Origin: Candidatus Stygibacter australis
Lineage (GTDB): Bacteria > Cloacimonadota > Cloacimonadia > Cloacimonadales > TCS61
NCBI GenBank assembly: GCA_030765845.1
Contig: JAVCDJ010000039.1
Span: 1 to 32,648 of the forward strand
Reading direction: 5' to 3'
DNA: 32,648 nucleotides
The notes beneath the pieces are model-generated. The model did no database searches. It saw only the letters and a list, made by a program, of their open reading frames with translations, and was not told the origin of the DNA. The translations under genes and the position numbers were made by a program. Each line of letters starts with the position of its first letter. The stretch's first letter is position 1. Below, piece by piece: positions 8,227 through 32,648 of this stretch.

Positions 8227-9672
8227 ATGAAGAAGATAATAATAATACTATTTCTGGGTATTATCCTTAGTTCATCAGCTGATATGGATAAGCGGATTAT
8301 CGGATACTTCGCTTCCTGGGGAGTTTATGTGCGTGATTATCATGTCACAGATATACCAGCCGAGAAGATCACTCATATTAATTATGCTTTTGCCAATATC
8401 AATCCTAATACCTTAGAAATAATGCTGGGCGATGCTTATGCTGATATTGATAAGTTCTATCCTGGTGATAGTTGGGAACCCGGGTCATTACGAGGCTCAT
8501 TCCATCAATTGCAGATACTCAAAGCTAATTATCCAGAGGTGAAAACACTGATTTCTGTAGGTGGCTGGACATGGTCAACTTACTTCTCACTGGTGGCTGC
8601 TACGGCAGAATCACGGCAGAATTTTGCTGCTTCCTGCGTGGAATTTATTCAGGAATATGAATTTGACGGAGTAGATATTGATTGGGAATATCCTGTGGGC
8701 GGAGGTTTGGAAACCAATTACTATAGTGAAGATGACCCAGAGAATTTTGTGCTGCTGCTGGCAGAAATGCGCAGTCAACTTGATGCTGCTGGAGATTACC
8801 TCTTGACTGTAGCGACACCAGCAGGACCAGAAAAGATAGCGAATCATGACCTGGCAGGGATGGAACCCTATCTGGACTGGTTCAATATTATGACTTATGA
8901 TTTTCATGGACCCTGGCCAGGGGGTGGAGATGCGGTAACCGGGCATTTATCGGCAATATACAGTCAGGAAGATGATCCACTTCCAGAACCTTATCACAGT
9001 GGCTATAATACAGATGCAGCAGTGCAGACGTATCTGGCTGCGGGAATTGAAAGTGATAAACTGCAGGTTGGTTTCCCATTTTATGGACGAGGATTTGCTG
9101 GCGTGACAAACGCAAATAACGGTTTATATCAGGAATGGACAAACTGTCCCTGGTTCGGCACCTGGGAAAATGGTGTATATGATTACTATGACCTGCAGGC
9201 AAATTACAATGGTGTGAATGGTTACGAGGATTTCTGGGACGAAGAAGCTCAGATATCATGGCTATATAATGCCTCTTCGCAGGTAATGATTACTTACTGC
9301 GACACTTTATCAACTGCCTGCAAAGCCGATTATGTACTTGAAATGGAACTGGGTGGAGCGATGTTCTGGGAGTTTAACGGAGATCATAATGAAGAGCTGC
9401 TGGATGTGATCTATGCGGTATTCAGTTCTGAAGGTGAGGTCATGTATGGTGATATAGACGATGATACTGAGATCACAGCTTATGATGCTTCACTGGTATT
9501 ACAATATTTTGTGGGAATGGATCCAATACCGGAAATAGATCCTCTGCCCTGGGAAGAAGAGCGTTTGCAAAAAGCAGATGTAAGCGGTGATACAAATATA
9601 GATGCATATGGTTCAGCATTGATAATGCGCTATGTGGTCGGTATGATATTTGAATTTCCTGTGGAAGAATAA
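8227..9672 (+). CDS. Secreted GH18 chitinase-like hydrolase with C-terminal dockerin-like pair
   Basis: Residues 1-18 are a signal peptide. The GH18 TIM barrel spans about 20-400. SVGGWTWS is at 110-117, and the catalytic DxxDxDxE motif is D147, D150, D152 and proton donor E154 (DGVDIDWE). MTYDFHG lies at 222-228, and the closing FWEFNGD strand at 380-386. The catalytic set is complete, so hydrolysis of chitin or a related GlcNAc polymer is expected. The tail holds two type-I dockerin-like calcium loops, about 407-431 (YGDIDDDTEITAYDASLVLQ) and 449-473 (KADVSGDTNIDAYGSALIMR). No cohesin is visible nearby. GGAG at the right spacing supports the ATG start. Confidence 0.9.
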   Translation: MKKIIIILFLGIILSSSADMDKRIIGYFASWGVYVRDYHVTDIPAEKITHINYAFANINPNTLEIMLGDAYADIDKFYPGDSWEPGSLRGSFHQLQILKANYPEVKTLISVGGWTWSTYFSLVAATAESRQNFAASCVEFIQEYEFDGVDIDWEYPVGGGLETNYYSEDDPENFVLLLAEMRSQLDAAGDYLLTVATPAGPEKIANHDLAGMEPYLDWFNIMTYDFHGPWPGGGDAVTGHLSAIYSQEDDPLPEPYHSGYNTDAAVQTYLAAGIESDKLQVGFPFYGRGFAGVTNANNGLYQEWTNCPWFGTWENGVYDYYDLQANYNGVNGYEDFWDEEAQISWLYNASSQVMITYCDTLSTACKADYVLEMELGGAMFWEFNGDHNEELLDVIYAVFSSEGEVMYGDIDDDTEITAYDASLVLQYFVGMDPIPEIDPLPWEEERLQKADVSGDTNIDAYGSALIMRYVVGMIFEFPVEE

Positions 9673-22690: not shown

Positions 22691-23060
22691 AGACAGGAAA
22701 TGAAGCAAAATCTTTCAAACATGGATATCAAGTACGTTCGGTGACATTTAGTCCAGATGGAAAATTTCTGGCAACTGGAAGTTCTGACAATAATGCACGA
22801 ATTTTCAATTTAGAGACAGGAAATGAAGTTAAATCTTTCAAACATGGAGGTTCTGTACTTTCAGTATCCTTTAGTCCAGATGGAAAATATCTGGCAACTG
22901 GAAGTTCTGACAATAATGCACGAATTTTCAATTTAGAGACAGGAAATGAAGTTAAATCTTTCAAACATGGAGATTATATAAGTTCAGTATCCTTTAGTCC
23001 AGATGGAAAATATCTTGCTGTTGGGTGTAGTGATGATTATGCATATATATACCGGACACT
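22255..23060 (+). repeat. Seven tandem WD40 blade repeats, 120/123-nt DNA period
   Basis: TTTAGTCCAGATGGAAAA or a close variant recurs at 22262, 22382, 22505, 22625, 22747, 22870 and 22993. That gives steps of 120, 123, 120, 122 (one base lost), 123 and 123. Each unit encodes SVxFSPDGKYLATGS, then IFNLETGN, then KSF. Blades 1 and 3 are the 40-residue type (SYxNAF) and blades 2 and 4 the 41-residue type (SDDDYAR), showing duplication of a two-blade unit. Blades 5 and 6 are nearly identical to each other (SSDNNAR). Confidence 0.9.
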
Positions 23061-24681
23061 GATCCAGGTAGAAGATGAAGTTTTAGCAAAGAAAGCAATA
23101 TCAAGACCTCCCGCACTGTCTGCAAGCGTAAGCTTTGAGGATACAGATGGTAATAATTTTCTTGATGCTTTGGAAAAGGGGATTTTTCACCTGAACATTA
23201 CCAATCAGGGAGAAGGAACTGGAAAAGGAATACTTGTTAAATTCAATCCTGAAAGGATAGAAAACTTGAATTACAATAATACATATATTGAAGAAATAGA
23301 AGCAGGGAAGACAACAGAAGTGGATATACCAATCGAGGCATATATTGGAATAGAAGATGCAGATCATCTAATTCGTTTTGAGTTTGATGAGATAAATGGT
23401 TTTCCACCGGATCCTGTAGAAATTCAGATTTCCACTAAATCTTTTCAGAAACCGGAAATATTCATTGTAGATACTGGTATTGAAGATGGTAACTCAAATG
23501 GAATGATCGAATCGGGAGAAATGATAGAATTAACTGTAAGGATCGGTAATAAAGGAAAAGGCACAGGAACAGGAGCTTATGCAAAGTTTTATGCTGGAGA
23601 CAATGTATTTATTACTGATACATTTCCCAAAACTGTGAAACTGGGCGATATTGAATATAATGACCAGATAGATGTACCACTTGAATTTTTCGTTAATGAC
23701 AAAGCAGAAGATAATATCCCTTTATATGTCGATTTTACTGAAGCAACCGGACTGGCAGGAGTGGATAAACTGCGTTTGCCGATAAAGAAAAGCGAAAGTG
23801 CAAGAACTATCCAGAAAACAGTAGTTTCAGGAATTGAGAAAGAATATGGAGAGCTTGCCTATGAAGCAGACCTTTCTGTAGATATCGAGCAGAATATACC
23901 CCGTGGAGTAAAAAACAATGATGTAATTGCAGTAGTAATCGGTAACCGTGATTATCAGAAGACAAAGCAGGTTGATTTTGCTATGCGTGATGCAGCATTA
24001 ATGAAACAGTATCTGATATCTGCCTTTGGTTTGAAAGAAGGCAATATATTCATAATTAATAATGCAACTAAGGGCGATTTTGAAACATATTTTGGCACGG
24101 ACAGAAATTATCAGGGCAAGCTTTATAATTCAGTTAAAAGCCAGGTTACTGACGTGATAATATTTTATTCCGGTCATGGTGCACCGAGTATAAAAGATCA
24201 GAAGGGATATTTTGTACCTGTGGAATGTGATCCTCAATATGTGGAATTAGGAGGATATTCAATTGATACATTTTATAATAACCTTGCTGAAATACCGGCA
24301 AAATCAATGACAGTTATCCTTGATGCCTGCTTCAGCGGAGCAGAGCTTCTGGAAAATATTTCACCTATAATACTTGATATTGATAATCCTATTATTATAT
24401 TGGAAAATAGTTTGATAATCTCCAGTTCCCAAAGTGATCAGCCGTCAAGCTGGTATAAAGAAAAGAAACATGGAATGTTCACCTACTTCTTCTTAAAGGC
24501 AATCCATAACAGAAATGCAGATTATGATAATAATGGTGATATAACCTATAATGAGATCTATCAGTATGTGTCGGACAGCAATGATGGTGTCCCATATAAT
24601 ACAAAACTGTTGCATGGTTTTGAACAGAATCCTCAGCTATCAGGTCAGGATACTGATAAAATTGCAGTTAAATACGAGTAG
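22632..24681 (+). CDS. WD40/Ig-like/caspase protein, C-terminal portion (separated by frameshift)
   Basis: This is the remainder of the gene beginning at 21635; the first usable GTG in this frame is at 22741. Four WD40-like blades come first (ending near 23060). Two similar Ig/CARDB-like domains follow (about 23116-23440 and 23455-23790, each with a DxNxNGxxExGE-like loop and GEGTGKG or GKGTGTG). Last is a peptidase C14 caspase p20-like domain (about 23900-24670). The catalytic dyad is present: His in YSGHGAP (24175-24177) and Cys in DACFSGAE (24328-24330), residues 848 and 899 of the restored protein. With the frame broken, this half lacks the signal peptide. The DUF4384 lipoprotein follows 48 nt later, a known partner type for caspases. 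Confidence 0.85.
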
Positions 24682-28632: not shown

Positions 28633-31600
28633 ATGCGGAAATTGTTGATGCATGTTATATTCATCTTATTGATATCATTACTTATGGGAGATGAGAGGGA
28701 TCCTGGCTGGCAGCCAGTAATTTATACAAATAGTACTGTAGCTTATTGTCAAGTGACAATAAACAATGAGGCTGCTGAAACGGGTGATATTCTGGGAGCA
28801 TTTGCTGCTAGTGAATGTAGGGGAACAGGTAATATATTTTTCTATAATGGTGAATCATATTCTGTTATGAATATCCAGGGTGAGCAAATAGAGACAATCA
28901 CTTTCAAGTTATGGGATGCCAATGAAGATATCATTTTAGATATTGATGAGAGTGTGCAGAGTTATCCAGGACATGATCTTGGATACCCTCCGAACTTTCT
29001 GGAGCTTAATGCCAGTGGTGGTGGGTTGCCAAATGAACCACCAGTTGTTGACCTGCCAGGGGAAATTGAATTTGATAATATTGAAACTTATTTATTTGCA
29101 ATTAGAGATTTTATTTATGATGCTGAGGGTGACAATCTTGAAATTAGCTGGACTGGTAATGAAGATGTAAATATTGAAATAACGGATAACACTTGGCAAT
29201 CGGTTAATTATGGGACCTTTACTAATTTATATGGATATATCAACCAAAATGGTGAATCTGTACCTTTGGAATATGAAGTGGGAGTTTTTGTAGGTAGTCA
29301 ATGTAGAGATATTGCCGTTCTGCAATCATATAATGGGAGGAGTTTTTTAAATACTACCGTGCAGGGAACTTCAATAGAGGAAATGGAGATCAGGATAAAA
29401 GATCCTGAAACTAACGAAGTGTGGGTCTGTGCAGATTTGATACCCAGCAATCCGGGAGGGTCAGTGGGTTATCCCACATTTCTGGAGCTTAATTGTGATG
29501 AAGCGGATCTGGAAGGTGATCTGATCTTAAATGTGACAGATTTCTGGATTGGTACGGAAGAAATTACTTTTAGTGTTTATGATCATGAAAATGATCCGGT
29601 TCAGCAGAATGTGATCGTAATGGTGCTGGCTGGTAATCACGCCCCGGAGATATTTTTGCCCGATAGCTTATATGCGATAGAAGATGAAAGTCTTATTGTA
29701 GATTTCACTGAATATATCAATGATGTAGATGATGATGAACTTACTTTAGCTCAATTAAATAATTTAGTAAATATCCAGGTTGAGATTACTGGCTTTCAGG
29801 TTAATATTACAGCAGATGCGAACTGGTATGGAAGTGAGGAATTAGAATTTGAAGTGAGTGATCCTGGTGGTTTGAGTTCAACTGATCAGATGGTAGTGGA
29901 GTTTATTTCGGTGAATGATGTTCCGGATCTGGAATTACCTTCAGAGCTTGTTTGGGATGAAGATAGTGAATATGTAATTGATCTTGCTTATATGATCTCA
30001 GATGCAGAAAATGATGAATTGACTGTGATTTGGGAAGAAAATGAATATCTGGAAATAGAGGAATCTGAGATCAACTGGGAGCCTGTAGAATATTCACAAA
30101 CTATGCTGATCTATGGTAGTGTTTCCATAAATGGTGAAGCGATAGCAAGTGATGATATTATTGCAGCATTTGTTGGTAATGAATGCCGGGGTATTGGTTA
30201 TAGATGGGGTTCATCTAATTTTACTACCTTTAACTTATTTACCGAAGAACCTGAGGAGTTGTATTTCAGGATACTTGATGTGAGTGAAAATATCACCTAT
30301 GGAGTGGATCTTGTGATTGTAACAATTCCAGGTGGAGTGGCAGGTTATCCGCCAAATTTCCTGCAGCTGGCTGGCAATACAGTGATCAATAATCTAAGCT
30401 ATAAAATTACTCCTGATGATAACTGGTTTGGAGATACTTATCTGGCATTAACTGTTACTGATAGTGAGGGAGGAGCTGCAGAAGATAATTTAAATGTAAC
30501 CATCACAGGAGTGAATGACCTGCCTTTATTGAACCTGCCGGAAAGTCTGGAGATAGATATGGGAGATATTCTCGACCTTGATCTTACGGGCTATATAGTT
30601 GATATTGATGGAGACAGCCTATATATAACAGCAGAAAGCGAATTCCTTGTTACAGAAATCAATGAGATGACGCTGGAGATTGATTGTGGGAATACTGTGC
30701 CCGGTATATATGATCTGCAGATTAATGTTTATGATGGAACAGAAACAGTAAGTGATAATATTTCTGTGGAGGTGATTGATAACAATCAGATACCGGAATT
30801 TGAACTACCTGGAGAAATATCATTTACCGAAGACTCTGAAATCGTCTTTAACTGGCAGCAATATGCCATTGACCCGGATGGAGATAGTCTGGTAATATTG
30901 TGGAGTGGTAATGAACAGATAATAATTCAGCAGATTGAAAATGGAGACATCCTTCTATCTGCAGCTCCGAACTGGTATGGCATTGAGCAGATAAATTTTC
31001 AAATATCCGATGGATTTGCCACAGTGATTGACACAATGAATATTATCGTGACAGCAGTTAATGATGCACCAGAATATATTGGTGTTTATAATATGGAATT
31101 TGATGAGGATAGTGTTTATCAGACAGGTTTAGCTGAATTCTGGCTTGATATTGATACTGATGAACTTGAGATTGGTGGATTTTCAGAATTACTGCAAGTG
31201 GCAATTATTGGTGATACTCTGGAATTGACACCGGAAGAGAACTGGAATGGTGATTGCCAATTGGAATTATGGGCTGATGATGGTGAGAACACTGTAACTA
31301 TAAATGTGGATATAACAGTGAATTCTGTTAATGATGATCCCTGGCTGGCAATACCAGAGGAAATAGAAATTAATGAAGATGGGAATTTCTCATTAGATCT
31401 TTCGGATTACAGCGGTGACGTTGATGGAGATCAGCTTGTATATAGTGCGGAAAGTAATATTATAATTATTGAAATATCAGGCAGTGAAGCATTGATTTCT
31501 GCTCCAGAAAACTGGTACGGTCAAGATACAGTAACTTTTACAGTCAGTGATGAAATTACGCGAAGCGAAGTGGAGCAGGATATAAATGTAATAATTAATC

Positions 31601-32648
31601 CGGTCAATGATCCACCTCAGTTAGACCTGCCGGAAAGTATAACTTTTGCATCTGGCAGTATTGAGGAGATTGATTTCAACTTGTATTGCAGTGATATAGA
31701 CAGCCCTGATCTTTTGATTGGTTACAGTGGCAATGAAAATATCATTATTGATGTGGATGGATTGATAGTGACCTTATCTGCTGGCAGCAATTGGCTGGGA
31801 ATGGAGGAACTTAATTTCTGGGTAACGGATGGTGAATATCAAGCAGATGATATCCTGACTGTATTTGTTACTGAGACTGGTAGTAATTTTGAAATTAATT
31901 TGCCTGAAGAGATGAGCATTAATGAAGATGAAAGTGAAGTGATTGACCTGGCTGATCATCTGACAAATAACTTGAACTACTCAATAGAGATTGAGCTAAG
32001 TGAATTGACTAATATCTCTATGGATATTAATGATTTGATCATCGAGTTTACGGGTACCCCTGACTGGTCTGGCAGTGAAGATCTCACAGTTACAGTATTA
32101 AGCTCAGATACTGGTGAAACTATCAGTGATGTGATTTCTATTGTTGTTGAACCAGTGAATGACCCACCTGTAATTAATTTACCGGATGAGATAAATCTTC
32201 AGGAGGATTCTACAATTTTTTACAGTTTTTATCAGTATTGCTCAGATATAGATAGCAACCAGTTAGATTTCTCATTGGGTAATGGGAGTCCAAATTTGAA
32301 TATCCAGATCCAGGGATATAATACCTTGATTTCCGGGGTATTAAATTATTTCGGCACTGAAGTGGTGACCTTTAATCTTAGTGACGGAGAATTTACCATA
32401 TCTGATTCCATTTTGATAATTGTGAATCCGGTAAATGATCCCCCGATTATAAATCTTCCAAACTCATTCTATGTAAATGAAGATGCTTCTTTAACCCTGG
32501 ATATGAGTAATTATATTCTGGAATTTGATAATGATGAACTGGATTTAACAGTTAGCGGAAACGAAGAAATAGATGCAGAAATTGAAGATATGGAAATCAC
32601 TTTTTCTGCTGCAGCAAACTGGTATGGCAGTGAAAGTATTACGATCAC
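28633..32648 (+). CDS. Giant secreted cadherin/Ig-like repeat protein with nested AFVGxECRG modules (3' end beyond window)
   Basis: The frame is open for 1338 codons to the window edge without a stop. An in-frame TAG at 28627 makes ATG 28633 the first start, and a run of six Gs lies 6 nt upstream. The signal peptide is MRKLLMHVIFILLISLLMG. Repeats of roughly 80-100 residues carry (V/N)NDxP at their borders, then LPxxIxxxEDS, DIDGDxL, SGNENI and NWYGxExxxFxVSD. This is the cadherin-like/Ig tandem-95 style. A second module of about 105 residues occurs at 28690-29010, 29185-29511 and 30070-30385. Each copy starts WxxVxY, contains AAFVGxECRG-like text, and ends GYPxFLELN. Acidic loops suggest calcium binding. 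It is probably a surface adhesin or matrix protein. A C-terminal sorting signal would lie outside the window. Confidence 0.9.
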   Translation, partial: MRKLLMHVIFILLISLLMGDERDPGWQPVIYTNSTVAYCQVTINNEAAETGDILGAFAASECRGTGNIFFYNGESYSVMNIQGEQIETITFKLWDANEDIILDIDESVQSYPGHDLGYPPNFLELNASGGGLPNEPPVVDLPGEIEFDNIETYLFAIRDFIYDAEGDNLEISWTGNEDVNIEITDNTWQSVNYGTFTNLYGYINQNGESVPLEYEVGVFVGSQCRDIAVLQSYNGRSFLNTTVQGTSIEEMEIRIKDPETNEVWVCADLIPSNPGGSVGYPTFLELNCDEADLEGDLILNVTDFWIGTEEITFSVYDHENDPVQQNVIVMVLAGNHAPEIFLPDSLYAIEDESLIVDFTEYINDVDDDELTLAQLNNLVNIQVEITGFQVNITADANWYGSEELEFEVSDPGGLSSTDQMVVEFISVNDVPDLELPSELVWDEDSEYVIDLAYMISDAENDELTVIWEENEYLEIEESEINWEPVEYSQTMLIYGSVSINGEAIASDDIIAAFVGNECRGIGYRWGSSNFTTFNLFTEEPEELYFRILDVSENITYGVDLVIVTIPGGVAGYPPNFLQLAGNTVINNLSYKITPDDNWFGDTYLALTVTDSEGGAAEDNLNVTITGVNDLPLLNLPESLEIDMGDILDLDLTGYIVDIDGDSLYITAESEFLVTEINEMTLEIDCGNTVPGIYDLQINVYDGTETVSDNISVEVIDNNQIPEFELPGEISFTEDSEIVFNWQQYAIDPDGDSLVILWSGNEQIIIQQIENGDILLSAAPNWYGIEQINFQISDGFATVIDTMNIIVTAVNDAPEYIGVYNMEFDEDSVYQTGLAEFWLDIDTDELEIGGFSELLQVAIIGDTLELTPEENWNGDCQLELWADDGENTVTINVDITVNSVNDDPWLAIPEEIEINEDGNFSLDLSDYSGDVDGDQLVYSAESNIIIIEISGSEALISAPENWYGQDTVTFTVSDEITRSEVEQDINVIINPVNDPPQLDLPESITFASGSIEEIDFNLYCSDIDSPDLLIGYSGNENIIIDVDGLIVTLSAGSNWLGMEELNFWVTDGEYQADDILTVFVTETGSNFEINLPEEMSINEDESEVIDLADHLTNNLNYSIEIELSELTNISMDINDLIIEFTGTPDWSGSEDLTVTVLSSDTGETISDVISIVVEPVNDPPVINLPDEINLQEDSTIFYSFYQYCSDIDSNQLDFSLGNGSPNLNIQIQGYNTLISGVLNYFGTEVVTFNLSDGEFTISDSILIIVNPVNDPPIINLPNSFYVNEDASLTLDMSNYILEFDNDELDLTVSGNEEIDAEIEDMEITFSAAANWYGSESITI

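Follow-up and report, generated by a model that had tools for sequence, protein, structure and literature searches.

Two copies of a 97-residue module (M) are nested inside otherwise ordinary tandem-95/cadherin-like repeats of a large protein, both at one fixed loop of the repeat. The protein is encoded in the window analysed here, i.e., the whole of contig C39 (32,648 bases) of a 3.8-Mb genome in 278 contigs. The closest named relatives of the source genome are Candidatus Stygibacter frigidus and two Cloacimonadota MAGs; the source itself is described as a lake bacterium.

The open reading frame of this rod protein (28633-32648, plus strand) specifies at least 1338 residues according to the ORF list and its translation, and runs off the contig end. 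A basic start followed by a hydrophobic stretch suggests a putative signal-peptide-like leader at about residues 1-20 (28633-28692, plus strand; MRKLLMHVIFILLISLLMGD). The leader is followed by the first module (M1) and, from residue 134, by tandem-95/cadherin-like repeats of about 91 residues each, the contig end at base 32648 falling inside repeat 11. With matches to NF012211 (tand_rpt_95; 215 bits versus a cut-off of 90), PF17963 (144 bits), PF17803 (112 bits) and PF17892 (87 bits), all above the curated cut-off, the protein belongs to the tandem-95/bacterial cadherin-like repeat proteins. The contig end makes 'giant', as used in the sequence-only reading, a provisional description of this protein; the longest orthologous rod ORF comprises at least 1577 residues and is likewise cut by its own contig end. 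Indeed, all four orthologous genes (that of the window, at base 32648, as well as L075, L076 and L077) are truncated at contig ends, probably because of their repeats, so that no C-terminus of the rod orthologues is available.

Two further proteins encoded in the window were noted. A 646-residue protein (22741-24681) matches a caspase-like domain (EACC1-associated type) with 60.7 bits, i.e., below the cut-off of 140, and also part of a serine peptidase model. For a 481-residue protein (8227-9672), similarity to chitinase ChiD was observed (154 bits, with an equivalog cut-off of 750 that is not reached), which fits published claims of chitin breakdown in the genus Stygibacter.

Modules and repeats were delimited with (i) a repeat HMM for which repeats 2 and 4-10 but not repeats 1 and 3 were used, and (ii) an M profile built from the three modules of the window and iterated within the genome. 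Three modules are present, as proposed by the sequence-only reading with coordinates that agree within a few tens of bases, and M1 (28708-28998, plus strand; E 1.4e-41) lies ahead of the repeats at the N-terminal, non-nested position assigned to it. The other two modules each split a repeat (all features on the plus strand). Repeat 1 is composed of an N-terminal part (29032-29184, residues 134-184, four strands in the structure model), the insert with M2 (29185-29517; profile core 29194-29481) and a C-terminal part (29518-29634, residues 296-334); the repeat HMM matches it as two pieces (residues 134-187 to model positions 1-54, residues 297-331 to 55-88) with M2 between them. The uninterrupted repeat 2 (29635-29913; model positions 1-91), in which a two-residue turn occupies the place of the insert, serves as internal control. 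Repeat 3 has the same composition, i.e., an N-terminal part (29914-30060, residues 428-476), the insert with M3 (30061-30387; profile core 30076-30360) and a C-terminal part (30388-30513, residues 586-627), and is again matched as two pieces (residues 428-480 to model positions 1-55, residues 584-626 to 49-90) on either side of M3. Repeats 4-11 (30514-32648) are uninterrupted (repeat HMM; tand_rpt_95, Big_9, Cadherin_4/5) except that the contig end cuts the last of them.

Both breaks fall at the same place (position ~54 of 91 of the repeat HMM), and the outer flanks of repeat 1 and of repeat 3 each total 92 residues, equalling one repeat. Joined at the best of a small grid of junction positions, these flanks score 57.8 bits (repeat 1) and 71.0 bits (repeat 3), compared to 19.7-32.3 bits for a single flank alone and 36.1 bits at most for controls with shuffled C-terminal flanks. 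The claims that copies two and three interrupt a repeat, that their flanking strands join into a normal one and that the same relative loop hosts both inserts have thereby been borne out.

An AlphaFold2 model of residues 132-430 (repeat 1, M2 and repeat 2; mean pLDDT 94.7, pTM 0.72; model m7506ecce5f93), a check suggested together with the sequence-only reading, puts M2 within repeat 1 and not between complete repeats. The five models computed agree (mean pLDDT 94.1-94.7). M2 is flanked by strands 48-53 (residues 179-184; end of the N-terminal part) and 165-170 (residues 296-301; start of the C-terminal part), and the equivalent strands of repeat 2 (250-255 and 258-263) are joined by the two-residue turn, the insertion point being the turn that connects strands four and five of the modelled repeat. 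The input was a 76-row alignment including uninterrupted repeat pairs, which were placed across the insert by MAFFT; since such pairs favour the nested reading, the model is consistent with nesting and no independent proof of it. In an earlier model from a four-row alignment (the four orthologues), M mostly reached pLDDT values of 75-88 and the host halves ~50-60 or lower; because of this low confidence of the host halves, the four-row model was not used as evidence for nesting. The evidence drawn from the sequence is independent of both models. Foldseek searches with both models retrieved only general cadherin/Ig-type chains (query TM-scores ≤ 0.35) and did not identify the fold of M.

The search for other proteins with the same nesting, also suggested at the outset, was productive. 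With repeat 1 plus module as query, two genomes of the same genus were found to encode full-length nested orthologues (90% and 63% identity), and a third one came from another genus of the same family (47% identity), the nesting being kept down to this ~47% identity over the N-terminal ~630 residues. Moreover, a paralogue family with the same order (leader, M, repeat with nested M, repeat, repeat with nested M, repeat) occurs in all four genomes. The two families together contain 16 nested repeats, every one of which uses the same loop and has flanks totalling 90-95 residues. Joined-repeat scores are strong in 12 of these 16 (45-74 bits), while the other four, all representing repeat 1 of the paralogue family, score 13-20 bits and are still above shuffled controls. 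When a nested-unit profile was searched against 125 genomes of the phylum, the matches listed spanned the full unit in these four genomes only and in none of the other 121, where they extend over the module and no more than a portion of a flank. Other partial repeat matches (L034, ~1847-2031; L091, 725-890; L043, 383-430) were rejected as other domains or divergent repeats. That the modules actually sit between complete repeats, the interruption being a misreading or an assembly join, has next to no probability, since it is contradicted by the split matches, flank sums and joined scores as well as by the same order in four genomes and the confident AlphaFold2 model; no support for it was found, and the four-row model could not decide.

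M is uncatalogued: among 14 diverse members searched, the best E-values, reached by single members only, were 0.022 in Pfam and 0.075 in NCBIfam, and the M profile retrieved no PDB chain up to E = 10. At E ≤ 1e-6, M is present in 68 of 125 Cloacimonadota genomes, with large expansions in the four nesting ones. Of the ~70 copies in the source genome, only four interrupt a repeat, one pair in the protein of contig C39 and another in that of contig C29. The majority are arranged in tandem or placed in line between complete repeats, so that M can do without nesting, whatever its function. Long M arrays, some with near-identical blocks, are found in ORFs of ~3500 to 5400 residues that reach contig ends (L044 on contig C165, L043 on contig C217).

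M also sits inside a host unrelated to the cadherin-like repeats. A PstC-family phosphate permease (L036, contig C193, 1285-2916, minus strand; TIGR02138, 292.8 bits), whose gene adjoins those of PstA, PstS and a PhoB-like protein, has its TM1-TM2 loop enlarged by two M modules, which add well over 200 residues. This pair is kept in two relatives (L117 and L118; 81% and 44% identity), i.e., in three genomes altogether; the PstC-like permease of a fourth genome (L115) is without M insertion. The loop is predicted to be periplasmic, and a surface ligand is not expected there. Hence, ligand display on a surface rod cannot be the only role of M.

Phylogenetic analysis groups M2 of both families with M3 of the window family (UFBoot 82), and M3 of the paralogue with M1 of the window family (UFBoot 91, long branch). 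In the host-repeat tree, repeat 1 is united with repeat 7, an uninterrupted one (UFBoot 99), and repeats 3 and 6 form another group (UFBoot 70). Thus, the M copies weakly group, whereas host repeats 1 and 3 do not, which hints that inserts entered the same repeat turn more than once, although these alignments of only ~95 columns cannot settle the matter.

Pfam scans of the window protein, the C-terminus of which lies beyond the contig end, revealed no RTX family. The complete paralogues of two genomes (L079 and L080) have a type A sorting domain (TIGR04183; 35.9 and 34.5 bits, cut-off 23), i.e., a type IX tail, at the C-terminus and are without RTX match. A search covering the SprA family and sorting domains yielded SprA-family matches above cut-off in the source genome. 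Judged from the paralogue tails and these type IX parts of the genome, the window protein, its own C-terminus missing, is probably exported by a type IX system. In the source genome (G000), at least 150 matches to the type A sorting domain were counted, which suggests that many of its proteins are type IX cargo. A 'PGDELFAFAG'-type motif precedes the sorting tail in the C29-type proteins L079 and L080 (~residues 945-1035); the M-like region ahead of this tail reached 8.9 bits at best, which is too weak to claim.

Taken together, the window protein is best viewed, with moderate confidence, as an exported tandem-95/cadherin-like rod in which two repeats act as split hosts projecting M sideways as putative binding modules. 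The chain would leave the host repeat after its fourth strand, a complete M module would fold and bud sideways from the rod, and the chain would then return and finish the host repeat, leaving the rod continuous with M2 and M3 sticking out, by analogy to RTX adhesins. M would bind through its projected end, and the window protein would be surface-exposed. Ligand binding by M is plausible from this analogy and from the polymer-attachment lifestyle proposed for the genus (PMC8542988). However, M resembles no known domain at the sequence level, and its copies are mostly not nested.

Two other explanations keep the nested architecture and assign M a different purpose. M could be a structural side-piece that stiffens, spaces or laterally packs the rod, its nesting being the neutral outcome of a close-ended module landing in a permissive turn. 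The occurrence of M in line, in tandem and nested within one genome as well as in PstC agrees with a position that is tolerated rather than tuned, and the grouping of repeat 1 with an uninterrupted repeat hints at separate insertions into one permissive loop. Furthermore, inserted domains generally have close termini (PMC13114784). Nevertheless, the two positions of the nested copies are conserved across both families in all four genomes, suggesting selection on the arrangement, and a purely structural role is regarded as unlikely. Still less probable is that M recognises a component of the cell's own envelope, either polysaccharide made by the cell or other M modules, tying rods and PstC into one network instead of binding outside ligands. 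The M pairs in the PstC loop of three genomes, which a relative lacks in its PstC-like permease, and the abundance of M in the source genome, with many copies in tandem arrays, are compatible with such a network, but with the PstC loop expected in the periplasm and the rods outside, contact between the two may never occur. One may tentatively, and with low confidence, speculate that M is a clade-specific, insertion-prone 'plug-in' that enters unrelated hosts at turns and loops (one fixed hairpin of the cadherin-like repeats, the TM1-TM2 loop of PstC), perhaps acquired repeatedly at the same repeat turn, with a binding or assembly role shared by surface rods and an inner-membrane transporter. 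The insertion in PstC provides a further test of the purpose of M.

Insertion of one domain into another is also found in RrgA, a rod-like pilus adhesin of Streptococcus pneumoniae in which a Cna-B-type domain hosts an integrin-I-like one; the folds are unrelated to those of the window protein, and RrgA belongs to a gram-positive pilus. The sequence-only reading had considered nesting unusual for tandem adhesins. This was overstated, since budding of ligand-binding domains sideways from 'split' Ig-like domains has been published for Aeromonas, Vibrio and Marinomonas, in each case in RTX adhesins (PMC12077191, PMC10865825), and insertions were found in 20% of multidomain proteins by a 2026 survey (PMC13114784). 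A literature search on nested domains in bacterial cadherin adhesins found nothing, 'split domain' being the appropriate precedent. As in Aeromonas hydrophila AhLap, Vibrio cholerae FrhA and Marinomonas primoryensis MpIBP, an Ig-like rod is predicted in which the host β-sandwich is interrupted by a projecting compact domain (PMC12077191, PMC10865825), and, as judged from sequence and model, the Ig-like host is discontinuous in sequence with a whole other domain emerging from it. Differences concern (i) the site, as FrhA is split after a single first strand (12 residues) and the present repeats after ~50 of 91 residues, i.e., in a different hairpin, (ii) the inserted domain itself, (iii) the hosts, which here are ordinary members of the repeat array, and (iv) the C-terminus, the paralogue having a type IX tail without RTX match.

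The host repeats strongly match Tandem-95, Big_9, Cadherin_4 and Cadherin_5 proteins; however, neither these models nor the neighbouring repeats are interrupted, and repeats 1 and 3 differ from them in having a domain inserted at this turn. Scaffoldin-like and dockerin proteins of Candidatus Stygibacter, which are large, extracellular, C-terminally attached and proposed to function in substrate attachment (PMC8542988), share the genus and the possession of repeated modules with the window protein. The scaffoldin-like protein contains cohesin and CBM2/CBM3 domains, whereas M and the window protein match neither (Pfam, NCBIfam). M would represent a concrete target for glycan arrays if, as has been proposed for RTX adhesins, domains in nested position were those that bind ligands. 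Thus, modules budding sideways from giant adhesins are already known, while module M, its insertion site and the export route proposed here are new, and 'split domain' projection, described for RTX adhesins, is extended to an uncultured phylum with type IX secretion as the candidate setting.
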